Positions 955-64,000 of a stretch of 64,000 bases of DNA are shown in pieces (position 1 is the stretch's first letter; every line of letters starts with the position of its first letter). Below the pieces are notes generated by a model. That model worked only from the letters and a program-made list of their open reading frames with translations, made no database searches and was not told where the DNA came from. Where the stretch lies: assembly GCA_021234155.1 (NCBI GenBank), contig JAJEKV010000192.1, positions 207,001 to 271,000 of the forward strand, written 5' to 3'. Source of the stretch: Isoetes taiwanensis. Lineage: Eukaryota; Streptophyta; Lycopodiopsida; Isoetales; Isoetaceae. The position numbers and the translations under genes are program-made.

Positions 955-1504
955 CATTAGGGATTTTTTGAGATCATAAAAGGGCCTTCTAAGAACTGCT
1001 GACTAAGCTATATGAACTACCAATCAGAAAACAGAACTGGTAATCCAGTCAGCAAAACAGTTATAACTAACTCACTGGATCACATTTTCTAGCATAAGTG
1101 TTGATAGAAAAGTCCAAATGAGCTCTTGTTTGGTGCAATAGATAGATCTCATTGAGATCTTTCTAACCTTGGGTGGTTTTCATATCTTTTAGCCCCATAA
1201 GATAGTAAAAAATGGTAAAAACCATATTTTTTGGAGTTTTGACAATCATAAATGGTTAAAATATGTGCAAAGCACCTAAGGTTGGAAAGATCTCAACGAG
1301 ATCTATCTATTGCATTAAACAAGAGCTCATTTGGACTTTTCTACCAATAGTTATGCTAGAAAATGTGATCCAGTGAGTTAGTTATAACAGTTTTGCTGAC
1401 TGGACCCGTCAGGCTCTGTTTTCTGATTGGTAGTTCATTTATCTTCATTTGGCTTAGTTAGCATGTTTTGAAGGCCCTTTTTTGATCTCAAAAAAACCCT
1501 AATG
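955..1504. mobile_element. 550-bp foldback/MITE element, copy 1
   Basis: The ends are inverted repeats: CATTAGGGATTTTTTGAG on the left, and the right end reads CATTAGGGTTTTTTTGAG on the opposite strand. The complementarity continues inward over most of both halves, so the element can fold into one long hairpin. Inner matching arms include the AGATCTATCTATTGCA-like segment near 1140 and 1300. There is no coding capacity. A second copy lies at 54959-55450 and a right-end remnant at 34147-34195. Flanks here (ttt / gca) show no clear target-site duplication, so the superfamily is undecided. Confidence 0.8.
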
Positions 1505-24504: not shown

Positions 24505-25018
24505 TAGCGCTCTGCTGACAATAGCGTGGCGCGGACGATGCCGGCCATGCCGGCAAAGCAAACACCGCCACGCCGATATTCTAAGCGTCGTTTAACGGCG
24601 TCTATATCGACGTTGTGCCACTTTGGTGTGCCCCGGCATGTCGGCAAACCCGCCGACCGGTCACGTCCGGATTTTTAGTCGCCGCTCAACGGCGTCCATG
24701 TCGACGCGGCGTAACACGGTGGCGTGCCCGGCCGCATGTCGCCAGCCCGCAGCCGGATGTGCCACGCCAGATCCACGAGACGACGTTAAACGACGTTTTG
24801 TGCGCAGGCGCGACATGCACGCTTGCCCGGCCAGCGCGCGGCCTCCATGCCACGCAGGCATGGTGGACACGCCGGCTTCTGTGGCGTCGTTGAACGACGC
24901 CGTGATGCCGCTTGAATCCACGCCACCGCCGCGGAACGACGTTGTCGTCGTTCCTCGACGATTTGACGTCGTTCAACGACCTCTAGACATCGTTGAAGGT
25001 CGACTATCCCTTGTAGTA
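24505..25018. mobile_element. CACTA right-end remnant, copy 2
   Basis: Carries the same motif order as 10960-11483: ATTCTAAGCGTCGTTTAACG, CGACGTTGTGCCACTTTGG, AGATCCACGA.GACGTTAAACGACG and CATGGTGGACACG, ending GACTATCCCTTGTAGTA. The last TIR base is A instead of G. It is joined directly to the LINE-plus C-terminal region on its left, with no left CACTA end. Confidence 0.75.
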
Positions 25019-25379: not shown

Positions 25380-28330
25380 AACCTTGGGATCGTACCTTGC
25401 CGTGTATTGCCTTGCAAACAAGCTACTTTCTTGATTCTTACATATGTCCTTCCATAGGGAGATGTATTTGTTGATGCTATCCTTCAACCCTGGAAGATCC
25501 TTCAATGTTGGTCTAGGAGGAATATTTTGTGGCACACCACTTGGTAGCATTGGCTGACCATGTTCATCCTCTTTCCACATTCTAACTCCTGGAGAATCTG
25601 CTGGAAGCCACTCTTTATGTGTAGGACGCATTTTGTATTGCATAACAGCCAATCCCCCTGCCATCTTAAATTTGAAGAGCAATGGTTCAGTATGCCCAAC
25701 CAGGCGTTGGCCCTTATCAGGGATGAATCCCTTCACAAAAGCCTTCCAATTTGGAACTTCATCAATAAAGTATGGAATTGGAGATTTTGCATTGCACTTG
25801 CTGAACAAGTAAAGTAGCTCTGGTAGTGTCAAAGCATCCGATGAACTCATCAAGGTTGAAAAATTTCCAAATAAAGCATCAATATCATCATGGGTGTGGC
25901 CGACCATCATAAAGCCCACTTGGATCTCATCAAAGACCTTAAGCCAAGTCAAATAAGATAAGTATGAGAAGACATACCTATTTTTGTTTTGCCCTGATGC
26001 ATTATCAAGTTGCAAATAGAGATTTCGGGGGAGAGGGTTGAACACCTCAGGATTCGTTGTAGTTGAAGCATTTGGCAATACTTCTGCCATAGAAGCAAGT
26101 TTGTTCTTCAAAGGATTGGTATCCTTGATCGCTTGCATCCATTTGCAATCTGCAGCTTACTTCCACATAAGTCACCTATCTTGTCCTCTTGTACCAATTC
26201 CAAGTCATGCAATATCCTAGAAAGTGAACCAATGTGGAAGTTCAATCATCTTTCCATAAATCAAGTGAGAAATGACCATAGGCACGACCACCATGCCCAT
26301 GAGTCGAGCTCTCCCCGTCAAACCGCTCTTCAAGCGATCACCTCTCCATACTGATTTTGCTAGATGATGACTTCTAGGCACTAAAGTCTTAACCTGATCC
26401 ATCTTATCATGTATTATACATAGATGATTTTCTCGAGACCGCCCCGACAATGCTCTCCAATGCCAATATTGACTGCAAAGAACGTTGCTCTAGCATATGA
26501 GCCCGACGCTGAATTGCAAGATTTCGCCTCTCTCTTGTATCTTTTGTTTTTCCAAATTTTGCTTAATCACCACGCCAGATGTTGCATTTAGAGAAGGTCA
26601 GATTTTTGCAATGCTAACATCCGGAAATTCCCTTTTCCATATACTATAAAAAAGGAGTTCAAGGCTACAGCTTGTTCTTGTAAGCTCTTCAACGACCGCA
26701 CCAACTTCTTTATGTATAAGCTTCTTATTAAGAATGGAAGGAAGCTTATGACGTTTTCTCTTACATCATCTCTACCTCTTTTTGCTCCTATGGGGAATAC
26801 TTTCAAATTCTCTGAATGAATCTGCCTAGCACACATTCGGTGGCCGTGTAGTGGATCTAGGTTCTTAGAGCCAAGATACCATGTTCACTACCTTTGCACC
26901 CGCTTTAAATCTGTTTCTCCAATTGTAAAATGTTGATCGACCGATACCTAAAGCCATAAGCCCACCCAAATGCCGTGCAATTCCATCCCCTTGAGCACTA
27001 CCACTCCCTCTCCTTCTCCTGTGTAAGTCACACTCAGCACGTCAAAAAAAACGTAACCCTTGCATTGTATGGTTGGGATAAAAATTCTTTTCTTAATTCA
27101 CGTACTTGATGCTTGGTAAGTTTCTTGTTGCAAGTATTTTTGCAGCAGCTTGACTTCATGAACTTATTGATTGAAGTTGTGGAGCATAGCCTTTCCTCTT
27201 TGCTTTTTCCCTTGGGCTCTCTTGGAATCCTATGTGTGTAAGTATACTTCCTCTTTCGTTTGAATTGAGCCTGAATGTTGTCCTCAAATGATTCTAGCTC
27301 TATATCCTCATTTTCTTTAGCTTCTCGAGCTTGCGATGTTGTGAGAGAAAGTCCTTCCATCCAAAGAAATCACATCGCTATTTTCCCACCGAACAAGTGC
27401 ATTCTCACTTGGCCTTTCTCGCACAAGCATGACATCTCGATCCTCTTTCATTAGTTCTGAAGCACCTTTTCCAACACAAAGGCCAACCTTTGTGTCTCCT
27501 AAGAATTCATCATCAACAAAGATCCCGAGGATCACCAATAGAATTATAGCTTCGATATTTAGTTCTAGTACAAGAATGGAGAATGTGGCACTTTTTCCAA
27601 GAGTTCTGTTCTTGAGTAACTAGGTGGTGGCTCATCATCATCCGATGGTATTCTCATGAGCAAACCGAAAGTAGCTAAATCCACCGATGGATCAATCTCT
27701 TCATCTCGCATCCGATATCGCCTCCACAGATTCTATGTATGAGTTGTATGAGGTAGGTGTCCCCATGTCCCGATCTTGGTGTCTCATCATGGGCTGATCA
27801 ATGCCATGAAAACGATATCGCCGAGGCCATTCGATGAATGTGCCCACGACCTCTGCAATATTATCCGCACCCGCACATGCAATCGGAAGCACCTCGAGTT
27901 GGCACCACAAATTTCGGTAAATTGCACAACCACGCTCGCGCATCCACATCCTTCCCATGGATGCTACTTCTATTCGACCAATGACCTCTCGCCAACAACA
28001 ACATTGTCATCAGATAAGTTCACCAAGTTCTCCGTGTTTGCTCATTGGTCGAGATGAAGGAGAACCGGGTGATGACGATGTAGAGGAACTACTAGGCGTG
28101 GTTGGGGGTTTCCGCCTCGTGATGATGATACAGGTGAAGCATCCGGACAGATTCTCACGCCACGCCTAGGCCATTCGATAAATGTGCCTACGGCCAAAGA
28201 ACGTTATCCGCGACTTTTGCACATGGAATGGGAAGCACATGGGATGGAATTATGGCTTCAAGAACCTCCACGACGGCGTTCTTAAAGTAGTCAATGCTCT
28301 TTCCATGTAGGTGCCCTCTATGCGCTCATG
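25380..28330 (-). pseudogene. Element X gene A, copy 1 (DUF7869-type putative transposase), broken
   Basis: Collinear with gene A of copy 2 (57242-60640). The C-terminal half is open at 26138-25380 and holds the LQLDNASGQNKNRY block, then FMMVGHTHDDIDALFG and the ADSPGVRMWKEDEH region, which is in frame here but frameshifted in copy 2. Upstream, frames change at about 26160, 26450, 26840, 27030, 27360 and 27960. Most differences from copy 2 fall at CAG/CTG sites. After QYTA the sequence departs from copy 2 and runs into a piece of gene A's 5' exon/intron boundary (GATCCCAAG/GTTAGTG). The missing part is the C-terminal SH3/BAH-like segment. Confidence 0.75.
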
Positions 28331-28439
28331 CCCCTAGCAACAACCACGCCCCCACAGAGGAAGTTCTCGCAAGGTCCTTTTCCCGCAAGCATGCAATGAC
28401 ACACACATTGTTAGAAACCCCGCTGAAATGAGCATAAAA

Positions 28440-28630
28440 TATTCATTAAAATAGACAAATGGCGCGGGTGCGCGCCATTTGTTCAAATAGCGCAGCGCCG
28501 CCATTTTGCCACAAAAAAATAGCCAGGCGCCGCCATTTGAGTAAATAGCGCCGGATGCGCTTATTTAGAGACAAATGGCGCTACTGGCGCTTTGATCTAA
28601 TGGCGCACTGGCGCCATTTGGCTTTCTTAG
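28440..28630. repeat. Palindromic AAATGGCGC array, copy 1
   Basis: Four to five short inverted repeats with arms AAATGGCGC/GCGCCATTT or AAATAGCGC/GCGCTATTT, separated by a few bases, lie between genes A and B. They correspond to 60764-60925 in copy 2. Each could form a small hairpin. Confidence 0.75.
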
Positions 28631-28649
28631 GAACAAAACAGAAAACTTA

Positions 28650-29165
28650 GGACAGCGATTACACAAAGATGATTACTACAAACTTACTACATATAACTAC
28701 TGAGGATACAAATTACATCAAGATTACAGATACACATTAGTAGAGATTACTACGACTACAAGATTATTACAGATTGTTACAGACATCGCATATTACAAAG
28801 ACACTACGATTATTTCCCGGATTGTTACAGTTTACTACAGATTACTGGGGGTAAAACATTATTCGCACTTATAGGAGAAATTGCCGACAAGAAAACTAAA
28901 AACGAGCAGATCCACTAACCTTGGGATCATTGTAGATCGAGAATCGCCATTGAAAGAAGGGGAAGAGCCTTGAATCAAGTAGGCAAGCAACCAAGTGAAG
29001 AAGCTCGCTATGAAATGAAGAAGCGCCGCTAATCAAGTGAAGCTCGCTATGAAATGAAGAAGCTACCGCTAACCAAGTGAAGCGCCGCTATCAAATAAAG
29101 AAGCTACCGCTATGAAATGAAGAAGCGCCGCTATGAAATGAAGAAGCGCCGCAACCAACTAAAGC
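28650..29165. repeat. TTACAGAT-type repeats and 20-22-bp minisatellite, copy 1
   Basis: From 28655 to 28850 there are loosely repeated GATTACTACAGA units. From 28965 to 29165 a minisatellite alternates AAGCGCCGCTATGAAATGAAG and AAGC..CGCTAACCAAGTG units. The minisatellite lies in the presumed first exon of gene A, just after the donor-like AAG/GTTAGTG at about 28915 (minus strand). Copy 2 (61270-61470) reads GCGCCTGCT where this copy reads GCGCCGCT. Confidence 0.65.
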
Positions 29166-29394
29166 GCCTAAATCGGTAGCGCCCAAAGAAGCCGCCACAA
29201 CCAACCAATGCCTAAGGGCTAATAGACGCCCGACTTAGCGCCAAGTCCTCTAAGGCGCAAGTACCGCGGATGTTGAAGCGAGGGACTGGAGCGTAAAATC
29301 GCAACCTCGCTAATACGAGGACGAAAAGCTTCGCTTACTCATATCCGCATCTCGCAGATTTTATAAACGGCTTTGAGACAGGGACTGGCACAAT

Positions 29395-29760
29395 ATATGC
29401 GAAAAGTGGCGGGGAATTCAAATTTTAAAATTCGTGGCGGACGGGCGGGGAATTCAAATTTTAGAATTCAATTGGCGGACGGGCGGGAAATTCAAATTCA
29501 AAATTTAAAATTTAAGTGACGGACGGGCGGAAGGGCTGGCGGGCGGGCAGACGGGCTGGCGGGCCAAATCCTGTCGCGCCATTTATTTCGACGGGTTTAT
29601 TTTCTCTCATTTCATTTCATCCGCCAGCTATCAGTGCCTTCCGCCAGCGCCCAGCGCCCAGCGCCTTACGCCTTCTCTCTCTAGCGCCTTCCGCTTTCTC
29701 TCTCTAGCGCCTTCGAGTAGCGCCTGTTGATCCGGGAGCTCGAGGAAAAAAGGTGGAGTA
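29395..29760. repeat. GGCGGGGAATTCAAATTT repeats and pyrimidine-rich leader, copy 1
   Basis: Three units of GGCGG(A/G)..GGCGGGGAATTCAAAT are followed by a GACGGGCGG run (29518-29560) and a leader with TCTCTCTAGCGCCTTCCG repeats (29670-29715). This is probably the promoter and 5' untranslated leader of gene B, shared head-to-head with gene A. Copy 2 equivalent: 61725-62045. Confidence 0.5.
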
Positions 29761-29805
29761 GAATTTCTACGGTCCCTGTACGTTACCTGTACGGTCGCAT
29801 ATACG

Positions 29806-29821
29806 ATGGCCTCGGGTTCAG
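29806..29821 (+). CDS. Element X gene B exon 1, copy 1
   Basis: ATGGCCTCGGGTTCAG/GTTAGT gives MASGS plus one base, followed by a consensus donor. Spliced to the acceptor TTGTGCAG/CTTCG at 30449, the frame continues as ASLSKAQNVV. In copy 2 the ATG reads ATA (62114-62116). The start is chosen because it is the only ATG that splices in frame to exon 2 in this copy. Confidence 0.6.
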
Positions 29822-30448
29822 GTTAGTTCGTACTGTTTTTTAGCTGTTTTCGTGGTCATGGGTATTGAAATAGCGCGACCGCGCTGTTTCATGTAGCCAG
29901 GTGTCTAGGATAGTTAGTTTCTGTGGTTCCGTCTGAAAGAAATAGCGCGACCGCGCTGTTTCATGTAGCCAGGTGTCTAGGATAGAGTTTTTGTGGTTCC
30001 GTTTTGGGCTGTGTTAGTTTTGTAGTTTGTTTAGATCAGATGTAGTGTAATGTAAATGGCGCCGCTGCGCCATTTCCATGCAAATGGCGCCGCTGCGCCA
30101 TTTCTCGACTGGCCAGTCGCCTCTCCCTCAGCTTGCCAACAATCTAGAAAGTACAGGCCTTATTATCGACTCGCGCGTCGAGAATGCCTCCGACTCGCTT
30201 GGCGAATAGGGAGTGTACACTCGGATTGTTGGTCGGGTGAGGGATACAAACTCGCCCGGCAAATGAATGCGGCGCGCCATTTGCATGGAAATGGCGCCCG
30301 GCTAAGCCATTTCTCGGCCGGCAAATGATGAAGCAGCCGGCATTTCGATACAAATGGCTTTTTGCCAAGGCCATTTCCATGCAAATGGCGTAGTGGGTTG
30401 GGTTTGGGTTTCATGATTTGATTGTTGATTTGTTGTTTTCTTGTGCAG
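29822..30448. other. Gene B intron 1 with palindromes, copy 1
   Basis: Starts GTTAGT, ends TTGTGCAG. It holds two copies of a ~75-bp AATAGCGCGACCGCGCTGTTTC segment (29870-29945 and 29940-29990) and a cluster of AAATGGCGC palindromes (30055-30400) with the GACTCGCGCGTCGAGAATGC segment between them. Confidence 0.6.
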
Positions 30449-31959
30449 CTTCGTTGTCCAAGGCCCAAAACGTAGTGACGGAGAAGACCGTGGTCATGGC
30501 TGGAAGGCCATGGTGCATGGAAATTGTCAGGGCAATTCCCTTGGAGGAAGGGGTCGACCCCACAAAGGGGGACAAGAGGAGAGAACTTTGCCTCCTCACA
30601 AAGTCAAGAAGTGGTGAGCAAGACGTTGTGATGCAGCTTGGCATCATTGTCAACATGCGGGAGGTGAAAAAGCAGGGAAGATTAGACTTCCTTGGTTGCA
30701 CAGTGGAGGATCCCGTGAATGTCAGCATTGACCTGTACTGCATGGACTGGCAGTTTTACGATCCACAGATGATGGAATCCAAAGATCAAGGACCGCATCT
30801 ACGCCAAAAGAAAAGGCTCGGCCGCTGCCTTCATAATGAAAAAACAGAGAGGCAAACCGGTATTAATGGCACGATCGAGCTACTTAGAGGATTTGGCATT
30901 CTCCGTTCAGCTATGGACGGATCAAAGAACTCTGTGTCACATATTGTCAGAGCCAAGACCTCTTGTAATATGCCTGCTCTAATGGACAGCACTTGGCTTC
31001 GACAGGAGATTTCAAGGAAAAGGCCAAACCTTAGGCAAACCAAGCCAAGGGAAGAAAAAGACAAACCAAAGGAAGTCCAAATGGAAGGGACAGAGCATGA
31101 GGAAGAGAATCAAAAGAAAGACGAAGAAAATGCCGTGTCTCCTCCCAAGTCAGGCCCCCAAGTCTCCTCCTATCGATCGGTTCTCCTATCAAGTCCCCTA
31201 CCAAACAGATTCGAGAGAACCATTAGTGATACTAAATCCTCCCCACATCTGGAGAGGTAAAGGCCTTTGATCGACGCACCGATAGCATTCCGCCTAAAAG
31301 GAAGAGGGAAACAAAGAAGGAGATGAGGGTTAAAAGTAAGAAAATGGAAAGTTTGGAGGTGCCTTCGAACCTAAGATGGACCGTGATGCCGAGGAGGAGT
31401 TGGCGTAAGAAACTCTAAAAAATACAAAGCAAAAGACAGTCACATGTTTCCTCTAGGTGTGACATATATCGAAAAAATATCCATCCGGGATATGGAAGAG
31501 GCACCTCCTAACATGACAAAGACGAAGTTGTAAATCCCAACATGTTAATTTGTGAAGATCCCCATCCAGTCTTCACGCCGTGAGATGTGGTGCCCTTTGA
31601 TCCGTGATACAAAGTAGCTAGTACCATGGTCACAAGAATCGACCGGCCGGTATGAGGTTCTACATCATCAATGGCAACCATTCTCTCGGCCCCACCGCCA
31701 CTTCGTGTGTCGGGTTGGGGATGTAAAGATGCCGAGTAGAACTTCGAAAGATTTACACTTATAGGTTTTGCGAGTTCTTTTCGAGAACCGAGTGACTTGG
31801 ACCTTCTTCGACTTAGTGTGGATGTCAATGACATCATAGCCGTGATCGGTGTTTAAGGAACCATACGCAGATCAGATACACCACCTGCGTAGGCAATACC
31901 AGGAGTGCGGCAAGCCAGCACCAGCAGGAAAAGGCCAATCAAGAAGCGACGAATACAAG
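30449..31959 (+). pseudogene. Element X gene B exon 2, copy 1 (N-terminal region plus ParB-like domain), frameshifted
   Basis: Open from 30449 to 31260: a conserved block MAGRPWCMEIVRAIPLEEGV, DVVMQLGIIVNMREVKKQGR and DLYCMDWQFYDPQMM that I do not recognise, then a Lys/Glu-rich linker. After frame breaks at about 31185-31250 and 31540, the other frames show VTYI.KISI.DMEEAPPNM, VVPFD.DTK, GMRFYIINGNHS (31642-31680) and LSVDVNDIIA. That order (a short IPI.DI strand, a P.D..K segment, an INGNH turn) resembles ParB/sulfiredoxin-like domains. It ends ACAAG/GTATGT at 31959. Compare 62761-64000. Confidence 0.6.
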
Positions 31960-32108
31960 GTATGTACCATCGTATGAGCCAAATGGCGCCACTGCGCCAT
32001 TTGAGGTCAAATGGCGCCGCTGCGCCATTTGAGGTCAAATGGCGCAGCGGCGCCATTTGACACTGCTTTGCTGCATTCAAGCTCTAACATGTTCGGTTTG
32101 CCTTTCAG
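31960..32108. other. Gene B intron 2 with three AAATGGCGC palindromes
   Basis: A short intron (149 bp) bounded by GTATGT and TTTCAG. It carries three near-identical AAATGGCGC..GCGCCATTT palindromes in tandem (31980-32060). Confidence 0.6.
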
Positions 32109-33661
32109 CATTACCTTGAAATGGTTGACAAGATTCTCAGGGGAAAGCATACCAAGGATGTCAACAGGTTCGTTTTCATGCCAGACGACATTTACGCTCT
32201 CTTTCGCCAAATGTGGAATAAATGGAAAAGGGGGGAGCTGAAAGATAACAAGGGCCAACAAATAGCAGTCAATTGGGCAAAGGATAAGGATTATTTTAGC
32301 GAGAACTACCTCAGATGCATGAGAGGCCTAGATTATGAAGATTGCAGAACTGTCCTCCAGGAAGCCATCAGAGGGGAGATTTATGTTAAGGTCACATCGG
32401 ATTATAAGGGTGATAATTTTTTCAAGACGAGAGCACAGAACTTGAGGATTCTTGCCTACATGAAGAAGGAGATTCTCAACTACATCCATGATGAACTTGG
32501 AATCAAGTACAGAAAGTTCGAGGACTTGAGAAAGGTGTCCGAGGGATTCCCAGACTCAACCCTCCTATCGTGGGGGGTGGTGCATAATAAGTGGGTCACC
32601 GACGGCATCCCCCGAAAAGAGGGCCCCATGGTAATGTGCCCTTCTCATTAGGCGCATCCATCCGTAAGCTTCTAAAGCCCGAGGCCGAGGACGACCTCAA
32701 AAGATATTATGTGGAGTGCGTTTCTAGTGGTGGGATTGTCCAGGATCCGATCGAGTTGTCTGCCAGCATGATCTGTTTGGATGCGAGGCAAATTACTCCG
32801 ATTTGGGATCCCGCCACTCTGGCCAAATTCTTTGATGCTGCTTCTAAGATGACAGATGTTGAGACATACTGGATAATATGTTTTGCTAAGCCGGAACATA
32901 CGAGTCTCTTCTGCAATGCCCTGGAGAGACTAGAATCCAGATCTAGAGTTTACTTAGGCATGTACGAAGAGGAAAGTGGGTGGGCACCAGGTGGTGGCAT
33001 AAAAGAACTAACAGCTGTGGTTCTAGCCACCAGGATCTCAGCCCAAGCACAACCTGATGAACACATGGATTTCAGGTTTTATGGTGAACATCCCCGGAAA
33101 GCACCTGAAGTTCCTAAGACCCATAAAGATGCAATTGGTGCCGAGCCAGAGAATCTGGCTAACAAGCTCCTGAGGGACAGGTTCAAATACGGTTGGCAAG
33201 GTATGGAAGGGGAATACTTGGTTCACAAGCAGGTTGGTCCTGCTACAACAGCATACCTTGTCGATAAGCTCTGCCCTCCAGGTAACTTTGTTCTAGACTT
33301 TTTTTCTGGTGGGGCTTTTGCTAGGGCATCATTGCAGTTAAAAAGGAGTTGTGTGGCCTATGAGCATGATGGAAGAAAGATCCAATGTATGCTAGGGATT
33401 CTTCAAAGAATTGACAACGTCATTAATCCCTGGCTTGATCCAGCAGCCATGGACTCTCGTAAGGTTTTGGCACTCACTGGACCTACTCCAGGAGAGACAT
33501 CACATGGTAGTGGAGGAGAGACATCACATGGTGGTGGAGTAGAGGCCACAGGATCCGGGGAACAAATGGTAAAAGACACAGATTCGCAGGTTGAGCGGAG
33601 TAAGATTAACCCGGAAGATATTGATAAAGCAGATGATAAGATTTTTGGTGAGGAATATTGA
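32109..33661 (+). CDS. Element X gene B exon 3, copy 1: N6/N4 DNA-methyltransferase-like domain
   Basis: Follows the acceptor TTTCAG/CATTACC and continues HYLEMVDKILRGKHTKDVNR. The C-terminal part matches the beta-class methyltransferase order. First comes the region that should hold the catalytic (D/S)PP(Y/W) motif, but reads ICLDARQITPIWDPATLAKF (32769 on). An inter-strand region with WIICFAKPEH follows, then a K..GPATTAYLVDKLCPPGN segment, and the SAM-binding block FVLDFFSGGAFARASLQL followed by CVAYEHDGRK (33283-33390). A Ser/Gly tail ends at TGA 33661. One frame break near 32630 separates the two halves. If the catalytic motif is really DARQ, the protein may bind SAM or DNA without methylating. 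Methyltransferase fold: likely; activity: unknown. Confidence 0.7.
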
Positions 33662-34120
33662 AAACTGATTTGCATATCATACTTGTATATAAGATTTACC
33701 TCTGTGGTATTGTTGATTACTGTACTGATTAATCTTTTGAATACTGATGACACATACGATCTTAATGTATTTGCCCCTTTTGTATATCTTACTTGTAAAA
33801 GCAAATAAGCCTTGTGAAATGCCATTTGCAATATGAATATATTACAACAGATCCTTGGCACGCTATTTGTTTGCTTTTTCCGTGTATTGTCCTTATGATT
33901 CACTTCAAATGCAAATGACTTTATTGCTTTTTTTCCACAATTTTTTCTTCAAATGGCGCCAACCGGGTTGTTTTACTACGATTTCCGCCCCATTTAAATG
34001 TCAAATAGAGCGGTTTTCAGGCTAATACTTGTGCATTTTTAAGTAAATAGCGCAGATTTGATTGCTGAATGTGTGAAAAAACAACGAACAATTTCATTTC
34101 GAGCGAAAATGGAATCACGA
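33662..34120. other. Gene B 3' region and Element X right subterminal region
   Basis: AT-rich 3' flank without genes. Between 33945 and 34065 single arms of the AAATGGCGC and AAATAGCGC motifs recur, as subterminal repeats would, ahead of the terminal inverted repeat. Confidence 0.5.
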
Positions 34121-34146
34121 AATTTCCAACTTTAATGAAACTCTGC
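34120..34146. repeat. Element X right terminal inverted repeat
   Basis: AAATTTCCAACTTTAATGAA followed by ACTCTGC. Its complement GCAGAGTTTCATTAAAGTT opens the element at 55451. The flanking TTAGTTGG on this side corresponds to TTAGTTTA on the left side (55443-55450), consistent with a 6-8-bp target duplication within a foldback element that reads TTAGTTAG in its intact copy (1454-1461). Confidence 0.75.
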
Positions 34147-34195
34147 TTAGTTGGCATGTTTTGAAGGCCCTTTTTTAATCTCAAAAAAACCCTAA
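34147..34195. mobile_element. Foldback element right-end remnant
   Basis: TTAGTTGGCATGTTTTGAAG followed by GCCC..AATCTCAAAAAAACCC and TAATG, matching 1454-1504 of the intact foldback element. LINE-plus resumes immediately after it. Confidence 0.8.
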
Positions 34196-34618
34196 TGCTA
34201 TATGACATCTGTCTTACTGGCTCCTCAATGTAAGATGAATGAGATCGTGTGTATTGTCAGGAATTTCATCCGGGTGGTACCTCCTCGGGCCGGGTGCCCG
34301 ATTTTTGCCATCCATTGTGCAGCAACCACATGCTCATGTGCCTATTTGGATATGTGATGCATGTGTTAAGCCAGAAAAGTTTGTTTCTTCCACATATAGG
34401 CTGCTTTTAGATTGTGAGCCTCTTCCCCCATCCCAGCATTGGCATGTTTAGGTTCCTCAACCACAGTGGAAAAGTGTTTGGATGTGGACATGGGATAAAT
34501 TTCTCCACCCTAAAGTGTCAGCGCTGCGATGGCAAATTCTCCATAGATGTGTTCGAGTTAATGTCTTGGTTCACAAGATGAACCCTAGAGTCTCAGATCG
34601 TTGCCCTCTCTGTGGCCA
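34196..34618 (+). pseudogene. LINE-plus 3' fragment, copy 3
   Basis: Resumes at the exact LINE-plus position (CTATATG.CATCTGTCTTAC) where copy 2 is interrupted at 54958, and runs to the same CACTA junction as copy 1 (24504). It contains the C-terminal FIWGG..G region and DRCPLCGQ at 34600-34620. Non-functional. Confidence 0.8.
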
Positions 34619-35142
34619 ATAGCGCTCTGCTGACAATAGCGGGGCGCGGACGATGCCGGCCACGCTGGCAAAATAGCTGCCACGTCAGATATTCTAAGCG
34701 TCGTTTAACGACGTCATGTCGACGTTGCAGGCCACTTTGGTGTGCCAGCCTGGCATGTCGTCAAACCCGCGAAGGCTGGCCGACCGTCACGCCGATTTTT
34801 AGTCGTCGTTCAACGACGTCATGTCGACGTGGCAGAACACGGTGGCGTGCCAGCCTGGCATGTCAGCAAGCCACGCAGCCGGATGTGCCATGCCAGATCC
34901 ACGAGACGACGTTAAACGACATTTTGTGCACGTGGCACGACACACACGCTTGCCAGCATGGCGCCAGCACCATGCCACGCAGGCATGGTGGACACGTCAG
35001 CTCTGTGTGGCGTCGTTGAACGATGTCGTGATGCCGTTGAATGACGTCACCGTCGTCAAACGACGTTGTCGTCGTTCCTCGACGATTTGACGTCGTTCAA
35101 CGACCTGTAGACGTCGTTGAAGGTCGACTATCCCTTGTAGTG
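34619..35142. mobile_element. CACTA right-end remnant, copy 3
   Basis: Best-preserved copy of the CGTCGTTTAACGACG subterminal array, ending GACTATCCCTTGTAGTG. It keeps CCAGCCTGGCATG where the other copies read CCCCGGCATG or CGGCGGCATG. Confidence 0.75.
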
Positions 35143-54958: not shown

Positions 54959-55450
54959 CATTAGGGATTTTTTGAGATCATAAAAGGGCCTTCTAAGAAC
55001 TGCTGACTAAGTTATATGAACTACCAATCAGAAAACAGAACTGGTAATCCAGTCAGCAAAACAGTTATAACTAACTCACTGGATCACATTTTCTAGCATA
55101 AGTGTTGATAGAAAAGTCCAAATGAGCTCTTGTTTGGTGCAATAGATAGATCTCATTGAGATCTTTCCAACCTTGGGTGGTTTGCATATCTTTTAGCCCC
55201 GTAGGATAGTAAAAAATGGTAAAAACCATATTTTTTGGAGTTTTGACAATCATAAGTGGTTAAAATATGTGCAAAGCACCTAAGATTGGAAAGATCTCAA
55301 GGAGATCTATCTATTGCACTAAACGAGAGCTCATTTGGACTTTTCTATCAAATGTGATCCAGTAAGTTAGTTATAACAGTTTTGCTGACTGGACCCGTCA
55401 GGCTCTGATTTCTGATTGGTAGTTCATTTATCTTCATTTGGCTTAGTTTA
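54959..55450. mobile_element. Foldback element, copy 2 (left ~490 bp)
   Basis: Starts CATTAGGGATTTTTTGAG and follows copy 1 (955-1460) with few changes, including the inverted inner arms. Its right tip is displaced by Element X, which begins at 55451 within TTAGTT. The matching right tip with LINE-plus sequence on its far side is at 34147-34195. Confidence 0.85.
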
Positions 55451-55499
55451 GCAGAGTTTCATTAAAGTTGGAATTCTGAAGACAAGTTGGAATAATTTT

Positions 55500-55640
55500 T
55501 ATATAGTATACCTTGGAGGGTTATGTATACCTCAATACTTATAGTATGGTTATGTGTATTACATAAGGTTATGTATACATGTGTATACTAGTATACCTCA
55601 ATACTTATAGTACGGTTATGTGTATTACAAAAGGTTATGT
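55500..55640. repeat. ~85-bp tandem repeat near the Element X left end
   Basis: Two units share GTATACCTCAATACTTATAG, TA.GGTTATGTGTATTACA and AGGTTATGTATAC. AT-rich and able to fold; probably subterminal structure. Confidence 0.7.
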
Positions 55641-55649
55641 ATACCTGTT

Positions 55650-57241
55650 GTATACTAACACAACCAGATTACAATAAGATAACAAGTACTATTATTCTTC
55701 TACTATTACTCAAATGATCGAACTAGCGTATAGCGCTCGAGAGATCCTTTTCGATCATGAACATTTGATACTCCCTATTCCACGGGAGATGGATGATAAC
55801 ATCAACGGGATCGGATAATGGCGAGGATTGAGAGCAACAAATGGTGAGCCGTCTTCAAGTGGTATATCTCGCCATGGCCGCTTGAAGTCCTCATGATTCA
55901 TCTTGCAAGTGATAGAATCACGTTCAAGACCGTAATACGTCATAGCTAGGCGGAGGCCAATGTTGCTTTGACTCGGCAATTTGATGTATATTTATACCCA
56001 CCAAAATTATTGATGGTATATACCCACCAAAATTATTGATGGTATATACATAGAAATTATTGGATCATATACATACTTGTATGGTACTCGTATAATGGCA
56101 ATGAACACCAATAATTCACATCAATAATTTTACTTCACTATAAAAGCGACTCCATCCGGTGGTAGAGCTCATTCATCTCCCATGGCTTCCTTGCCCGATC
56201 GTCCGAGAACATCCGATCCTTCAAAAAGCGCCTTAGCTATAATGATCTCGTGTGAATGCTACTGAGAAATGGTATCAAACTTGATCCATGGTCTGCAGTC
56301 CAAAGCAGATGGTCCCGCGAGTGCTTGCAAGAAGCTCACTTCGTGTTAAGGTCCACCTTTATTGGCTTCCCCGATCGGGGAGATCTATGAGTGAATAGCA
56401 TCACGTGCTTTGATGTTGATGATGAGTGAATCAGATCCGCTAAGGATATAATAATGACATGAGTACCTATGAACATGAGTGAATCATCGATGATATGTAT
56501 ACCATTAAGGATATAATAATATAAGCACTTATGATTTGTGTATCCATTGGGATATATATAATATAAGCATAGTGAATATTAGTTGATGTATAGAATCGAG
56601 TACATGATAGAATCATACACATGACGAGTACATGATACTTGTATACGCTCAATGATGGCGCCACTGATCCCACCCCAATAATTCACATCAATAATTTTAC
56701 TTCACTATAAAAAACAGCTCCATTCGGGGCTAGAGGTCATTCATCTCCCATGGATTATTTGCCTTCTTCTATTCACCACATCGAGGCGATCAAGTGCTCA
56801 ATGAGCCACTCGATCTTGTTGGTTGCCTAGACAGCATCTTCTTCTTGATCCCTACCGCGAAGAAAAGCTTTGGGCGCTGAGATTCATTGCCCTGCGTCAA
56901 TTCGTGTTATGATCCATCTGATTTGGCTTCCTGAGCGCATGAGCTATGAGATATCAGGGATCACTACTACAGATCCTGAAGATGAATGAATCACTTGTTC
57001 AACATATAAGCACTTCTGACCATCTTATCTATGAATCATGTATGCATTTATATATTAAAGATGTAAGCAATTATATATGATCACAAATATAGTAATGTAC
57101 AAGATCTTATGTATTAAGATGAAAGATATGTATTACAAGTACAAGATCTCATGTATTAAGATGAATAATGTGCTATGTCTTTCCACATGTCTACAATATA
57201 TTTCGAATTTAGACTGCTTTTCGCCTCTTGCCATTGGCATC
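55650..57241. other. Element X left flank of gene A, with two promoter-like repeats
   Basis: Two ~85-bp direct repeats (about 56104-56186 and 56676-56756) share CCAATAATTCACATCAATAA, a CTTCACTATAAAA TATA-like box, a CTCCAT(C/T)CGG segment and TCATTCATCTCCCATGG with an ATG at the end. Short GC-richer islands follow each (about 56180-56420 and 56750-56990), while the rest is AT-rich. They could be small exons or a decayed second transcription unit, but no protein family is visible. Confidence 0.4.
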
Positions 57242-60200
57242 CTAGGCATAATGAATAGCATCTAAATTTTCATACCTTGAAGGATCGGAAGGATTAGGCC
57301 GCCAACGCTTAGTCAAGCAGTCTTTGTAGTCCCCTCCAGTAGGCTTCCACCACGATACAAAAATATGGCCAAAATATGTAGATTCTGGATCAAGAACAGC
57401 ATTCTCCTCTGCATATCCTAACCAAGTGGCAGTGTTATCATCTCCAGGTCTGACTAGAACAAACATACCCTTTGTCACATGTACGTGAGGATCAAACTCT
57501 TCAAGAGGCAACACCGGGCGCCATCCGGCGGGCCACAATAAGATGGTAAAGGTCGTGTGACCAAGGCAGATACGTCGACCTCTGGAACAAATGCTGTTTG
57601 TTCTAGAGGAGCTTGTCTTGTTTGTGGCCAAAATGCATCATTTTGAGGATGTCCTGGAGCAACATCCTCCAAAGAGATAAGAAGCTGGCTCCAATACTCA
57701 ACACTTGCCGTGTATTGCCTTGCAAACAAGCTACTTTCTTGATTCTTACATATGTCCTTCCATAGGGAGATGTATTTGTTGATGCTATCCTTCAACCCTG
57801 GAAGATCCTTCAATGTTGGTCTAGGAGGAATATTTTGTGGCACACCACTTGGTAGCATTGGCTGACCATGTTCATCCTCTTTCCACATTCTAACTCCCCG
57901 GAGAATCTGGCTGAAGCCACTCTTTATGTGTAGGGCGATTTTTGTATTGCATAACAGCCAATCTCCCCGCCATCTTAAATTTGAAGAGCAATGGTTCAGT
58001 ATGCCCAACCAGGCGTTGGCCCTTATCAGGGATGAATCCCTTCACAAAAGCCTTCCAATTTGGAACTTCATCAATAAAGTATGGAATTGGAGATTTTGCA
58101 TTGCACTTGCTGAACAAGTAAAGTAGCTCTGGTAGTGTCAAAGCATCCGATGAACTCATCAAGGTTGAAAATTTTCCAAATAAAGCATCAATATCATCAT
58201 GGGTGTGGCCGACCATCATAAAGCCCACTTGGATCTCATCAAAGACCTTAAGCCAAGTCAAATAAGATAAGTATGAGAAGACATACCTATTTTTGTTTTG
58301 CCCTGATGCATTATCAAGTTGCAAATAGAGATTTCGGGGGAGAGGGTTGAACACCTCAGGATTCGTTGTAGTTGAAGCATTTGGCAATACTTCTGCCATA
58401 GAAGCAAGTTTGTTCTTCAAAGGATTGGTATCCTTGACTGCTTGCATCCATTTGCAATCTGCAGGCTTACTTCCACATAAGTCACCTATCTTGTCCTCTT
58501 GTACCAATTCCAAGTCATGCAATATCCTAGAAAGTGAACCAATGTGGAAGTTCGAATCATCTTTCCATAAATCAAGTGAGAAATGACCATAGGCACGACC
58601 ACCATGCCCATGAGTCAGAGCTCCTGTCAAACTGCTCTTCAAGCGATCACCTCTCCATACAGATTTTGCTAGATGATGACTTCTAGGCACTAAAGTCTTA
58701 ACCTGATCCATCTTATCATGTATTATACATAGATGATTTTCTGGAGACCGCTGTGACAATGCTCTCCAATGCCAATATTGACTTCTGCAAGAACGTTGCT
58801 CTAGCATATGAGCCCGACGTTGAATTGCAAGATTTCGTCTCTCTCTTGTATCTTTTGTTTTTTCCAGCTTTTGCTTAATCACCACGCAGATGTTGCATTT
58901 AGAGAAGGCTGTATTTTTTGCAATGCTAACATCTGGAAATTCCCTTTTCCATATACTATAAAAGGAGTTCAAGGCTACAGTTGTTCTTGTAAGCTCTTCA
59001 ACGACTGCACCAACTTCTTTATGTATAAGCTTCTTATTAAGAATGGAAGGAAGCTTGCGTACGTTTTCTCTTACATCATCTCTACCTCTTTTGCTCCTAT
59101 GGGGAATACTTTCAGCATTCTCCTGAATGAATCTGTCTAGCACACATTCGGTGGCCAGTGTAGTGGATCTAGGCTTCTTAGAGCCAGTATTACCATGTTC
59201 AGCTACCTTTGCACCTGCTTTAAATCTGTTTCTCCAATTGTAAAATGTTGACTGACTGATACCTAAAGCCATGCGCCACCCAGCCAGACAGAATTCCATC
59301 CCCTTGAGCACTACCCTGTCCTCTCCTTCTCCTGTGTAAGTCACACTCAGCACGTCAAAAAAAAAGGTAACCCTTGCATTGTATGGTTGGGATAAAAATT
59401 CTTTTCTTAATTCACGTACTTGATGCTTGGTAAGTTTCTTGTTGCAAGTATTTTTGCAGCAGCTTGACTTCATGAACTTATTGATTGAAGTTGTGGAGCA
59501 TAGCCTTTCCTCTTTGCTTTTCCCCTTGGGCTCTCTTGGAATCCTATGTGTGTAAGTATACTTCCTCTTTCGTTTGAATTGAGCCTGAATGTTGTCCTCA
59601 AATGATTCTAGCTCTATATCCTCATTTTCTTTAGCTTCTCGAGCTTGCAGATGTTGTGAGACAGTCCTTCCATCCAGCAGCATCACATCGCTATTTTCCC
59701 ACCGAACAAGTGCATTCTCACTTGGCCTTTCTGCACAAGCATGACATCTCAGATCCTCTTTCATTAGTTCTGGAAGCACCTTTCCAACACAAAGGCCAAC
59801 CTTTGTGTCTCCTAAGAATTCATCATCAACAAAGATCCCGAGGATCATCAATAGAATTATAGCTTCTGCATATTTAGTTCTAGTACAAGAATGGAGAATG
59901 TGGCACTGCATTTCCAAGAGTTCTGTTCTTGAGTAACTAGGTGGTGGCTCATCATCATCTGATGGTATTCTGCGAGCAAACCGAGTAGCTAAATCCACTG
60001 ATGGATCAATCTCTTCATCTGCATCTGATACTGCCTCCACAGATTCTATGTATGAGTTGTATGAGGTAGGTGTCCCCATGTCTCGATCTTGGTGTCTCAT
60101 CATGGGTCGTGCATCAATGCCATGAAAACGATATCGCCGAGGCCATTCGATGAATGTGCCCACACTCTGCAATATTATCCGCACACCGCACATGCAATCG

Positions 60201-60640
60201 GAAGCACCCGAAGTTGGCACCACAAAATTTCTGGAATCTTGCACAACCACGCTCGCATCCACATCCTTCCCATGGATGCTACTTCTATTCACCAATGACC
60301 TCTCGCCAACAACAACATTGTCATCAAAGATAAGTTCACCAAGTTCTCCGTGGTTGCTCATTGGTCGAGATGAAGGAGAACTGGGTGATGACGATGTAGA
60401 GGAACTACTAGGCGGGGTTGGGGGTTTCCGTCTCGGATGATGATACAGTGAAGCATCCGACGATTCTCACGCCACGCCTAGGCCATTCGATAAATGTGCC
60501 TACGGCCAAAGAACGTTATCCGCTTTTGCACATGGAATGGGAAGCACATGGGATGGAATTATGGCTTCAGTAACCTCCACGACGACGTTCTTAAAGTAGT
60601 CAATGCTCTTTCCATGTAGGTGCCCTCTATGCGCCTTCAT
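57242..60640 (-). CDS. Element X gene A, copy 2: DUF7869-type putative DDE transposase
   Basis: One long open frame (60361-57890, 823 codons) flanked by further coding sequence: upstream in another frame to an ATG near 60640, downstream to the stop at 57242, about 1,100 residues in all. Domains, counted from 60361: Ser/Asp-rich N-terminus; a Cys-rich segment (CCKNTCNKKLT); a helix-turn-helix LGISQSTFYNWRNRFKAG (about 362-380); FSKCNICVVIK; then the DUF7869 core with HDKMDQVKTLVPR (about 545), LQLDNASGQNKNRY (about 680) and VGHTHDDIDALFG (about 717). The three acidic positions and RNase-H-like order suggest a DDE transposase. The last ~130 residues (GMFVLVRPGDD, TWLGYAEE, FVSWWKP) resemble a BAH/SH3-like module. 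Frame breaks at about 57895, 57640 and 60370-60500 are probably at least partly sequencing error, since copy 1 is in frame across the first. Confidence 0.75.
60120..60560 (-). repeat. Internal duplication in the gene A N-terminal region
   Basis: Two stretches encode the same pattern. One reads VVVQDSRNFVVP ... VGTFIEWPRRYRF (about 60280-60125); the other reads VVVEVTEAIIP ... VGTFIEWPRRGV (about 60590-60470). DNA similarity is visible around AGGCCATTCGATGAATGTGCC. A Ser/Pro-rich linker separates them. Copy 1 has both (about 27830 and 28170). Confidence 0.65.
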
Positions 60641-60763
60641 GCCCCCTAGCAACAACCACGTCCCCACGGAGGAAGTTCTCGCAAGGTCCTTTTCCCCGCA
60701 AGCATGCAATGACACACATTGTTAGAAACCCCGCGAAATGAGCATAAAATATTCACAAAAGCA
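60641..60763. other. Gene A 5' region, possible further coding sequence
   Basis: The minus-strand frame stays open to 60715 without an ATG upstream of about 60640, so an upstream exon is possible. Confidence 0.35.
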
Positions 60764-60925
60764 GACAAATGGCGCGGGTAAGCCCATTTGTTCAAAATAG
60801 CGCACCGCCATTTTGCCACAAAATAGCGCAGCCGCGCCATTTGAGTAAATAGCGCGGATGCGCTATTTAGAGACAAATGGCGCGGCTGCGCTATTTGATC
60901 TAATGGCGCACCAGCGCCATTTGGC
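60764..60925. repeat. Palindromic AAATGGCGC array, copy 2
   Basis: Five short inverted repeats alternate AAATGGCGC..GCGCCATTT and AAATAGCGC..GCGCTATTT, with loops of 4-6 bases, on the upstream side of gene A. Same layout as 28440-28630. Confidence 0.8.
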
Positions 60926-60949
60926 TTTCTTAGGAACAAAACAGGAAAA

Positions 60950-61240
60950 CTTAGGACAGCAGATTACACAGTACAGATTACTACAGCTTACTACATATAA
61001 CTACAGGATACAACAGATTACTGAAGATTACAGATTACACATTAGTAGAGATTACTACAGACTACAAGATTATTACAGATTGTTACAGACATCGCATATT
61101 ACAAAGACACTACGATTATTTCCCTCGGATTGTTACAAAGTTACTACAGATTACTACAGGGTAGAAACATTATTCTGCACTTATAGGAGAAATTGCTGAC
61201 AGTAAAACTAAAACAGAACAGTCACTAACCTTGGGATCAT
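60950..61240. repeat. ATTACAGATTACTACAG-type repeats, copy 2
   Basis: Loosely repeated GATTACTACAG units (60958-61165) lie in the presumed gene A intron 1. A donor-like AAG/GTTAGTGACTG boundary is on the minus strand near 61232. Confidence 0.6.
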
Positions 61241-61269
61241 TGTAGATCGAGAATCTGCCATTGAAAGAA

Positions 61270-61480
61270 GGGAAGAGCCTTGAATCAAGTAGGCGCCTGC
61301 TAACCAAGTGAAGCGCCTGCTATGAAATGAAGAAGCGCCTGCTAATCAAGTGAAGCGCCTGCTATGAAATGAAGAAGCGCCTGCTAACCAAGTGAAGCGC
61401 CTGCTATCAAATGAAGAAGCGCCTGCTATGAAATGAAGAAGCGCCTGCTATGAAATGAAGAAGCGCGCGAACCAACTAAA
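61270..61480. repeat. GCGCCTGCT minisatellite, copy 2
   Basis: At least nine units of 20-22 bp alternate GCGCCTGCTATGAAATGAAG with GCGCCTGCTAACCAAGTG. They lie in the presumed 5' leader of gene A. Confidence 0.75.
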
Positions 61481-62100
61481 GCCATTAACCGGCGGTAGCG
61501 CCCAAAGAAGCGCCTGCTGAACCAGTGCCTAAGGCGGAATAGACGTCTGACTTGGCGGCCAAGTCCTCTAAGGCGCAAGTACCTGCGGATGTTGAAGCGA
61601 GGACGGGGAGCGTAAAATCGCAACCTGCGAATACGAGGACGAAAGCGCCTTCTGTTTACCATATCTGTACCCGCAGATTTTATAAACGGCTTTGAGACAG
61701 GGACTGGCACAATATATGCGAAAAGTGGCGGGGAATTCAAATTTTAAAATTCGTGGCGGACGGGCGGGGAATTCAAATTTTAGAATTCAATTGGCGGACG
61801 GGCGGGAAATTCAAATTCAAAATTTAAAATTTAAGTGATTGGACGGGCGGAAGGGTGGGCGGGCGGATTGGGGCGGCCAAATCTGTCAACCATTTATTTC
61901 GGCGGGTTTATTTTCTCTCATTTCATTTCATCCGCCCGACTATCGGTGCCTTCCCCGGCGCCCGGCCAAATACGGCGCCTTCCGCCTTCTCTCTCTAGCG
62001 CCTTCCGCTTTCTCTCTCTAGCGCCGGTAAGCGCCTGTTGATCCGGGAGCTCGAGGAAAAAAGGTGGAGTAAATTTCTACGGTCCTGTCGTCGTTACATG
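61480..62100. promoter_or_regulatory. Shared divergent promoter/leader region of genes A and B, copy 2
   Basis: Head-to-head genes share this interval. It holds GGCGGGGAATTCAAATTT repeats, the GACGGGCGG run and duplicated CTCTCTCTAGCGCCTTCCG leader motifs ahead of gene B exon 1. A TATAAA-like motif in CAGATTTTATAAACGGC (61674-61690) precedes the gene B leader and could be its TATA box. Promoter function is inferred from position. Confidence 0.45.
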
Positions 62101-62113
62101 CGATCGCATATCT

Positions 62114-62130
62114 GATAGCCTCGGGTTCGG
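62114..62130 (+). pseudogene. Gene B exon 1, copy 2 (start codon lost)
   Basis: ATAGCCTCGGGTTCGG/GTTAGT matches copy 1 except that ATG is ATA. The donor is intact. Either the start is mutated here or this is a base-call error. Confidence 0.5.
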
Positions 62131-62760
62131 GTTAGTTAAATCTTGTTTTTTAAAATTCATTTTTTCATGGTCATGGGTATTGAAATAAGCCTTGGCCGTA
62201 TTTGTTTCATGTAGCCAGGTGTCTAGGATAGTTAGTTTCTGTGGTTCCGTCTGAAAGAAATAGCGCGACCGCGCTGTTTCATGTAGCCAGGTGTCTAGGA
62301 TAGAGTTTTTGTGGTTCCGTTTTGGGCTGTGTTAGTTTTGTAGTTTGTTTAGATCAGATGTAGTGTAATGTAAATGGCGCCGCTGCGCCATTTCCATGCA
62401 AATGGCGCCGCTGCACCATTTCTCGACTGGCCAGTCGCCTCTCCCTCAGCTTGCCAACAATCTAGAAAGTACAGGCCTTATTATCGACTCGCGCGTCGAG
62501 AATGCCTCGACTCGCGAAGCGAGAATAGGGAGTGTACACTCTGGATTGTTGGCTGGCTGAGGATACCCCTTCGCCGGTCGGCAAATGGCCTGGGCCATTT
62601 GCATGGAAATGGCGCCGCTGCGCCATTTCTCGACTGGCAAATGGCGTAGCAGCGCCATTTCGATACAAATGGCACCGCTGCGCCATTTCCATGCAAATGG
62701 CGTAGTGGGTTGGGTTTGGGTTTCATGATTTGATTGTTGATTTGTTGTTTTCTTGTGCAG
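62130..62760. other. Gene B intron 1 with palindromes, copy 2
   Basis: Ends TTCTTGTGCAG. A palindrome cluster at 62370-62705 contains about six AAATGGCGC/GCGCCATTT units flanking the GACTCGCGCGTCGAGAATGC palindrome. It matches 29822-30448. Confidence 0.7.
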
Positions 62761-64000
62761 CTTCGTTGTCCAAGGCCCAAAACGTAGTGACGGAGAAGAC
62801 CGTGGTCATGGCTGGAAGGCCATGGTGCATGGAAATTGTCAGGGCAATTCCCTTGGAGGAAGGGGTCGACCCCACAAAGGGGGACAAGAGGAGAGAACTT
62901 TGCCTCCTCACAAAGTCAAGAAGTGGTGAGCAAGACGTTGTGATGCAGCTTGGCATCATTGTCAACATGCGGGAGGTGAAAAAGCAGGGAAGATTAGACT
63001 TCCTTGGTTGCACAGTGGAGGATCCCGTGAATGTCAGCATTGACCTGTACTGCATGGACTGGCAGTTTTACGATCCACAGATGATGGAATCCAGCATCAA
63101 GGACCAGACAGTCTCTGCCAAAAGAAAAGGCTGGCCGTTGCCTTCATACGAAAACAGAGAGGCAGCTGGTATTAATGGCACGATCGAGCTACTTAGAGGA
63201 TTTGGCATTCTCCGTTCAGCTATGGACGGATCAAAGAACTCTGTGTCACATATTGTCAGAGCCAAGACCTCTTGTAATATGCCTGCTCTAATGGACAGCA
63301 CTTGGCTTCGACAGGAGATTTCAAGGAAAAGGCCAAACCTTAGGCAAACCAAGCCAAGGGAAGAAAAAGACAAACCAAAGGAAGTCCAAATGGAAGGGAC
63401 AGAGCATGAGGAAGAGAATCAAAAGAAAGACGAAGAAAATGCCAGGTCTCCTCCCAAGTCAGCTCCCAAGTCTCCTCCTATCAGGATCGGTTCTCCTATC
63501 AAGTCCCCGGCCAAACAGGATTCAGAGAGAACCATTAGTGATACTAAATCCTCCCCACATCGGAGAGGTAAAGGCACTGCATCGACGGCTGATAGCATTC
63601 CGCCTAAAAGGAAGAGGGAAACAAAGAAGGAGATGAGGGTCAGAAAGCAGAAGAAAATGGAAAGTTTGGAGGTGCCTTCGGAACTGAAGATGGACCGTGA
63701 TGCCGAGGAGGAGTTGGCAGAAGAAACTCTAAAAAAAATACAGCAGCACAGTCACATGTTTCCTCTAGGTGTGACATATATCAGAAAAATATCCATCTGG
63801 GATATGGAAGAGGCACCTCCTAACATGACAGCACGAGTTGTAAATCCTGAACATGTTAATTTGCTGAAGATCCCCATCCAGTCTTCACGCCGGCAGATGT
63901 GGTGCCCTTTGATCCAGATACAAAGTAGCTAGTACCATGGTCACAAGAATCTGACCTGGCTGGTATGAGGTTCTACATCATCAATGGCAACCATTCTGTC
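62761..64000 (+). CDS. Element X gene B exon 2, copy 2 (partial): N-terminal region plus start of ParB-like domain
   Basis: Open from the acceptor at 62761 to 63932. Order: unrecognised conserved block (MAGRPWCMEIVRAIPLEEGV ... DLYCMDWQFYDPQMM), a TIELLRGFGILRSAMDGSKN segment, a charged Lys/Glu/Pro linker with nuclear-localisation-like KRKRETKKEMRVRKQKK (63600-63655), then LGVTYIRKISIWDMEEAPPN (63764 on) and VNPEHVNLLKIPIQS. A frame break near 63890 moves the continuation ADVVPFDPDTK ... GMRFYIINGNHSV to another frame, up to the window end. The ISIWDMEEAPPN / NPEHVNLLKIPI / INGNHS sequence is what suggests a ParB-like fold; no search was run. The methyltransferase exon lies beyond the window and is seen only in copy 1. 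Confidence 0.65.

Follow-up and report, generated by a model that had tools for sequence, protein, structure and literature searches.

An abundant ~11-kb DNA transposon of the lycophyte Isoetes taiwanensis carries a likely DUF7869 transposase gene, a DNA-methyltransferase-like gene and an array of 22-bp palindromes

The window analysed here is the 64,000-nucleotide stretch C1010:207001-271000 of the Isoetes taiwanensis genome; positions past 64000 are given in window-extended numbering, which runs on beyond its end. Its right side holds Element X, presented in a preliminary description of this stretch as a DNA transposon of ~11 kb with two head-to-head genes, A and B. When the contig was read 3 kb further, Element X was found to be complete, spanning C1010:262449-273429 from window position 55449 onwards, with a length of 10,977 bp between the ends first described and of 10,981 bp when two bases are added per side. 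Both genes were confirmed. The features of the locus are as follows.

55449..64000, no strand: in-window part of Element X, defined by the pair of terminal inverted repeats (TIRs), the empty site and the contig extension
55449..55473, plus strand: left TIR of 25 bp, which begins with TA here and with AA in the other 21 of 22 copies
55445..55448, no strand: left copy of the target site duplication AGTT; the right copy is at 66430-66433 (window-extended), and a single AGTT is present at the empty site
57242..60466, minus strand: gene A, putative DDD transposase, with an open reading frame (ORF) of 858 amino acids at 57890-60466 and C-terminal homologous pieces in other frames at 57475-58041 and 57242-57637
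57932..58351, minus strand: DUF7869 domain of gene A (residues 706-845, Pfam E=4.4e-42), which includes LDNASGQNKN and GHTHDDID
60767..60922, no strand: nine AAATRGCGC half-sites clustered upstream of gene A, some of them paired into 22-bp palindromes
62258..62688, no strand: eight half-sites clustered upstream of gene B, some of them likewise paired into 22-bp palindromes
62706..64000, plus strand: in-window part of gene B, which continues to 65945 (window-extended), with a putative intron at 64274-64394
955..1504, no strand: foldback repeat copy without Element X, the empty site, with a single AGTT at 1456-1459
25396..34148, no strand: second, left-truncated copy of Element X, with its right TIR at 34124-34148; its segment 32615-33658 is the methyltransferase-like part of gene B

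The terminal sequence was exact at 55451-55469 (+) and 34128-34146 (-), where 0.01 chance matches were expected. Positions 55451 and 34146 had been described as the 23-bp TIRs of a single element; the sequence and its inverted copy were confirmed, whereas neither the length nor the pairing was. The stretch between 55451 and 34146 was rejected as one element because 34146 is the right end of the truncated copy (25396-34146), and a genome search together with the contig extension placed the true partner of the 55451 TIR at C1010:273406-273427, outside the window. In the whole genome (1,658,258,908 bases in 1110 contigs), a 22-base form of the TIR with up to three mismatches was found 393 times on the plus and 358 times on the minus strand; the reversed control gave 0 and 4. 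From the 100 TIR matches listed we took all perfect plus/minus pairs less than 21 kb apart, which gave 22 TIR pairs and excluded a pair on C457 (34 kb). The left flank ended in AA in 21 of these 22 pairs, the window copy having TA, and in 21 of 22 the right flank opened with TT; since these bases are conserved, the TIR is 25 bp long, AAGCAGAGTTTCATTAAAGTTGGAA. In a diverged relative on C35 (L155, position 2483) the right end takes the variant form AAGCACAATTTTATTAAAATGAGAA, with the same subterminal sequence ATTTCGTGATTCC next to it; only this right end was recognised, and no left TIR partner was found within 17 kb.

An exact 4-bp target site duplication was present at 21 of the 22 TIR pairs, compared with 0.86% of 4,201 mismatched pairings, and the sole exception (C1018c) is altered in its right flank. 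Exact duplications of at least 5 bp were found at 0 of 22 pairs, and the 6-8-bp duplications anticipated before were not recovered. The window copy has AGTT; it had been read as TTAGTT on both sides because the TT at the outer end of the right TIR was added to AGTT. The flanks of the window copy matched window 955-1504 with 94.5% and 95.9% identity. The arms of this repeat are self-inverted, with 78% identity inside the left flank, and since Element X is missing from it and the junction shows a single AGTT, it is the empty site, and the foldback context of the insertion had been correctly described. With inverted ends, a fixed-length target duplication and an empty site, Element X is a real, abundant DNA transposon of ~11 kb and of the TIR-bearing cut-and-paste type.

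The right flanks of the truncated and the main copy were 98% identical, and the two copies are therefore probably duplicates of one insertion. Window 25396-34718 and 55449-67000 (extended), which share the truncated or main Element X and that right flank, have the appearance of a segmental duplication. At window 23825-24602, the outer flanks of the foldback repeat are joined without the foldback, which is probably a still older empty site.

A failure of genes A and B to co-occur elsewhere between the same TIRs had been named beforehand as a finding that would refute the two-gene element, and this refutation did not come about. Among the 22 TIR pairs, we read the interiors of eight full copies, chosen for perfect TIRs ~11 kb apart, and genes A and B were found head to head in all eight, with gene B inside the same TIRs as gene A and on the opposite strand. 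Likewise, the best-scoring genome matches yielded 53 places for gene A and 82 for gene B, and 19 A/B pairs lay within 20 kb of each other, 18 of them head to head, where ~0.1 pair was expected by chance.

Gene A is likely the transposase of Element X, as had been proposed; it encodes a DUF7869 protein with a DDD-like pattern. In eight aligned copies the motifs D-KMDQ, LDNASxQNKN and GHTHDDID were present in 7, 6 and 6 sequences, respectively, and judged by eye this pattern fits a DDD triad; its final D is replaced by Y in the copy on C1034. In the window copy the frame of gene A is broken, with its C-terminal part outside the frame of the 858-amino-acid ORF, while in the C1034 copy the pieces corresponding to the window ORF and to the C-terminal pieces share one frame. 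DUF7869 is common in this genome: a first look gave 9,907 candidates, 150 of them scored, and many further element families seem to carry it. A C-terminal module of gene A (window 57242-57500, GMFVLVRPGDD...SWWKPTG) gave no confident family assignment; a chromatin-reader-like fold would be a guess. With the peptide patterns used, no relatives of gene A or gene B were found in IMG/VR.

Academ and Chapaev are examples of superfamilies that also make 4-bp duplications, and Element X could belong to another superfamily of this kind, or DUF7869 transposases could make up a separate superfamily. The literature searched (a search short of most subscription journals) gave no mention of DUF7869, and the likeness of Element X to Sola is one of description and not of sequence, which leaves some room for this reading. 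We nevertheless consider it rather unlikely, since the description of Sola in the accessible part of a review (DDD transposase, 4-bp duplications, variable TIRs, sizes sometimes above 15 kb, occurrence in moss; PMC10741241) fits Element X, with its exact 4-bp duplication at 21 of 22 pairs, and since an opposite-strand ParB-methyltransferase partner is reported for a Sola1 element in the accessible part of PMC12477816. Neither the CACTA/G termini nor the 3-bp duplication given for CACTA/EnSpm in the same part of the review (PMC10741241) was found in Element X. By analogy, Sola (Sola1-like) is the most likely superfamily.

Gene B is made up of a first region (62706-63932), which changes frame, together with a ParB-like stretch, the putative intron and a last exon of 516 amino acids, and the protein, estimated from these pieces, has ~1,000 amino acids. 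In the window copy it shifts frame and has a stop near the ParB-like part. Because the frames of both genes are broken, the window copy is probably not autonomous; longer open frames of the Element X genes are retained in other copies.

Gene B had been described as an accessory protein with DNA-binding (ParB-like) and methyltransferase-like parts, and profile comparisons support a DNA-methyltransferase-like domain at its C-terminus. The PHROGs DNA methyltransferase family matched the window gene B with E=3.2e-4, a local hhalign comparison with 79 phage methyltransferases gave E=5e-4, and a PDB search with a gene B profile returned RsrI methylase as top match (E=0.08). Pfam N6_N4_Mtase matches were all below the cut-off (E=0.019 for the window; E<=1 in 6 of 15 copies, best 0.0017), and an integron-cassette Pfam family, which we took as chance, also matched 7 of 15 copies (best E=0.0095). 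By tblastn, gene B aligned in annotated methylases of eight phage records, all Mycobacterium phages, with E of 0.1-0.6. When compared with phage ParB-methyltransferase fusions (36 rows from 35 distinct sources), the C-terminus reached a local profile-profile score of 44.0, the best of 40 column shuffles being 22.9. These fusions (L159 and its relatives from IMG/VR) share with gene B the domain order and an alignable C-terminal region; L159, with 384 amino acids, has a DPPY motif, whereas gene B is far longer and lacks it. L159 was taken as the phage fusion because the Baka phage methylase has no ParB domain in Pfam. A segment of gene B ahead of the methyltransferase-like domain is weakly assigned as ParB-like; it aligned in register with phage ParB (27% identity, NGNHS..AA..LG).

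Several results speak against these domain assignments. The methyltransferase match spans only ~75 residues around motif I (VLDFFSGGA), the hhalign comparison with the 79 phage methyltransferases failed in global mode (score 7.3), the PDB search with a single gene B sequence returned no methylase, NCBIfam had no match for exon 3, and PHROGs had none for the diverged locus L058. PHROGs had no match for the ParB-like part either, and its hhalign score of 22.5 hardly exceeded the shuffle maximum of 21.5, with no meaningful match in Pfam or PDB. AlphaFold models built from single window sequences were unusable for both the methyltransferase-like and the DUF7869 part, with a mean predicted local distance difference test score (pLDDT) of 35 and 34.

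Active N6/N4 DNA methyltransferases carry a catalytic (D/N/S)PP(Y/F/W) motif. The pattern [DNS]PP[YFWH] was found in 0 of 20 gene B exon-3 sequences, and in most copies LDARQ or LDTRG stands at the position expected for DPPY (D[AT]R in 18 of 20 by regular expression). Since no DPPY motif was found, methyltransferase activity of gene B is doubtful, and DNA binding or S-adenosylmethionine (SAM)-dependent sensing appears more likely than ordinary N6/N4 methylation. Gene B might still be an active N6-adenine or N4-cytosine methyltransferase that marks the element by means of a non-canonical catalytic motif: its motif-I region is conserved (VLDFFSGGA and variants), and a relative in Ectocarpus is predicted to make N4-methylcytosine or N6-methyladenine according to the accessible part of PMC12477816. 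Given the residues at the DPPY position, we find this unlikely.

Element X contains a 22-bp palindrome, AAATRGCGC-N4-GCGCYATTT, in the form AAATGGCGC-N4-GCGCCATTT. The AAATRGCGC half-site occurs 12-29 times per full copy, against Markov means of 0.07-0.37, and 0 of 156 half-sites in eight copies fell inside the stretches matched to genes A and B, which make up 56% of the length. Besides the clusters upstream of both genes, four half-sites lie in the putative gene B intron (64274-64394), which agrees with the intron palindromes described earlier, and five at the 3' end of the element, the right-end sites being at 66086-66334 (window-extended). Facing half-sites were separated by a 4-bp spacer in 27 of 34 cases in full copies and in 49 of 51 at 18 gene-B loci (76 of 85 together).

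The palindrome was found 6,256 times in the genome with up to two mismatches, compared with five times for the reversed control. We also read 6 kb around the sites at ten loci picked by the palindrome itself, on ten of the eleven contigs among the 100 palindrome matches listed; C33, where a TIR pair was already known, and a second place on C26 were excluded. Gene B matches were present at nine and gene A matches at seven of these ten loci, and 44 of 49 facing pairs had the 4-bp spacer. Two of the loci (C16 and C38) are within 11 kb of a listed TIR, and eight are blind in that sense. At C9, C17 and C26 the A/B matches were mostly 25-45% identical to the proteins of the window. Conversely, at least five half-sites were present at 17 of 18 gene-B loci, and they accompany gene B down to 46% exon-3 identity (L058). 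At six further DUF7869 loci, whose identity to gene A is 18-34%, neither a half-site nor gene B was detected within 5 kb. Collectively, these results show that the palindrome is associated with gene B, because it is present at nearly all of the 18 gene-B loci and absent from 6 of 6 other DUF7869 loci.

A few of the same data pull the other way. Neither gene was matched at the palindrome locus on C14, the gene-B locus L059 had no half-site, and in eight copies no half-site was found in the left 5.2 kb, non-coding left end included, the nearest one lying at 5,265-5,516 from that end. Moreover, the six DUF7869 controls span only ~2.2 kb per side, and a search for the D..GQN pattern of gene A did not find it there.

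Two further repeats were noted. At L148 (C17) and L149 (C26), palindromes follow each other at 59-bp steps beside strongly diverged A/B genes, in an iteron-like manner. Between the two genes of the window copy (61293-61472) lies a GC-rich 42-bp direct repeat (GCGCCTGCTA...).

Gene B is the obvious candidate for the protein that binds the palindrome. CACTA elements have subterminal repeats bound by their transposase, and the protein that binds the palindromes of Element X could similarly be its gene A transposase or else a host factor, with gene B having an unrelated role such as help in excision. Some sites do lie near the right end, and gene A has a helix-turn-helix (HTH)-like Pfam match below the cut-off (E 0.0078). 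The empty left 5.2 kb, the absence of half-sites at 6 of 6 other DUF7869 loci and the way in which the sites track gene B as far as L058 argue against it, and we regard this alternative as distinctly improbable.

In 38 of 91 exon-3 pairs, all within groups, the ratio of nonsynonymous to synonymous substitution rates (dN/dS) was 0.16-0.94, with a median of 0.40. The 21 between-group pairs with measurable dS (2.07-3.11) had a dN of 0.20-0.24 and a dN/dS of 0.07-0.11, and the remaining 32 were saturated, with a dN of 0.20-0.54. Exon 3 of gene B is under constraint at the protein level. A reading of both gene B and its palindromes as passengers or relics without present function, which the stops and frame breaks in both genes of many copies and within-group dN/dS values up to 0.94 might suggest, is very improbable in view of the low between-group ratios, the exon 3 still open in several copies and the half-sites and 4-bp spacer kept across subfamilies.

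On balance, we favour the view that Element X represents a Sola (Sola1-like) cut-and-paste family of autonomous build, in which gene A encodes a DDD transposase and gene B a protein that binds the palindromes, counters silencing and tunes expression. The gene A transposase would catalyse transposition and so yield the 4-bp duplications seen at the insertion sites. The gene B protein, presumably as a dimer, would bind the 22-bp palindromes that cluster at each of the two promoters, inside the intron of gene B and towards the right end; once bound, it may mark or shield the element from host silencing and adjust its expression, as VANC does on Arabidopsis VANDAL elements.

According to the accessible part of PMC5735166, the binding targets of VANC21 are short motifs lined up in non-coding stretches of its element, both ahead of VANA and inside introns. 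VANDAL21 thus resembles Element X in having an accessory protein and short non-coding motif arrays, but it belongs to a different element family, and its motif is 9 bp long and of one orientation instead of a 22-bp palindrome; the VANC domains DUF1985 and DUF287 were not found in the gene B pieces by Pfam scans. Fungal DNA transposons with TET/JBP dioxygenases also carry a DNA-modification-type enzyme, although an oxidase and not a methyltransferase-like protein, and belong to other transposon lineages (accessible part of PMC12730594). Methyltransferases are carried as well by some Mariner elements (accessible part of PMC3627910). The closest counterpart by description is Sola1-1_Ec32 of Ectocarpus, a large Sola1 DNA transposon with a ParB-like and DNA-methyltransferase gene of 1104 amino acids (~1,000 in gene B) on the strand opposite to the transposase; unlike Element X it is from a brown alga, measures 21.5 kb and has 1,989 copies of which two are intact, and the two are likened by description and not by sequence (accessible part of PMC12477816). 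The accessible part of that paper mentions no binding site for the accessory protein.

The two-gene transposon first described is supported in its main lines, and it has published kin in Sola1-1_Ec32 (PMC12477816, accessible part): the two-gene ParB-methyltransferase transposon type is already published, and Element X is a further example, in a lycophyte. No such pairing in a land-plant transposon was met among the best-ranked matches of the literature searched, nor were a palindromic candidate target array and an altered catalytic motif in the parts of that literature accessible. We tentatively put forward, as a possibility that falls somewhat short of even, that this is a land-plant transposon with a parS-like system, in which a ParB-like protein with a catalytically altered methyltransferase domain recognises 22-bp palindromes that are scattered in their thousands and have a free centre of 4 bp; it would amount to a sequence-specific anti-silencing or chromatin-marking system of its own, independent of VANC and of the TET type.

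Element X extends the two-gene arrangement to a lycophyte at high copy number, and raises the question of whether a ParB-methyltransferase-like protein of this kind methylates at all. For the ParB-methyltransferase accessory proteins found in algal transposons, it has been proposed that they bind and modify their own element, with no target named in the accessible part of PMC12477816. Element X supplies a concrete candidate target, which occurs 6,256 times in the genome, has a fixed architecture and goes together with the gene, and the idea of self-binding therefore becomes directly testable.

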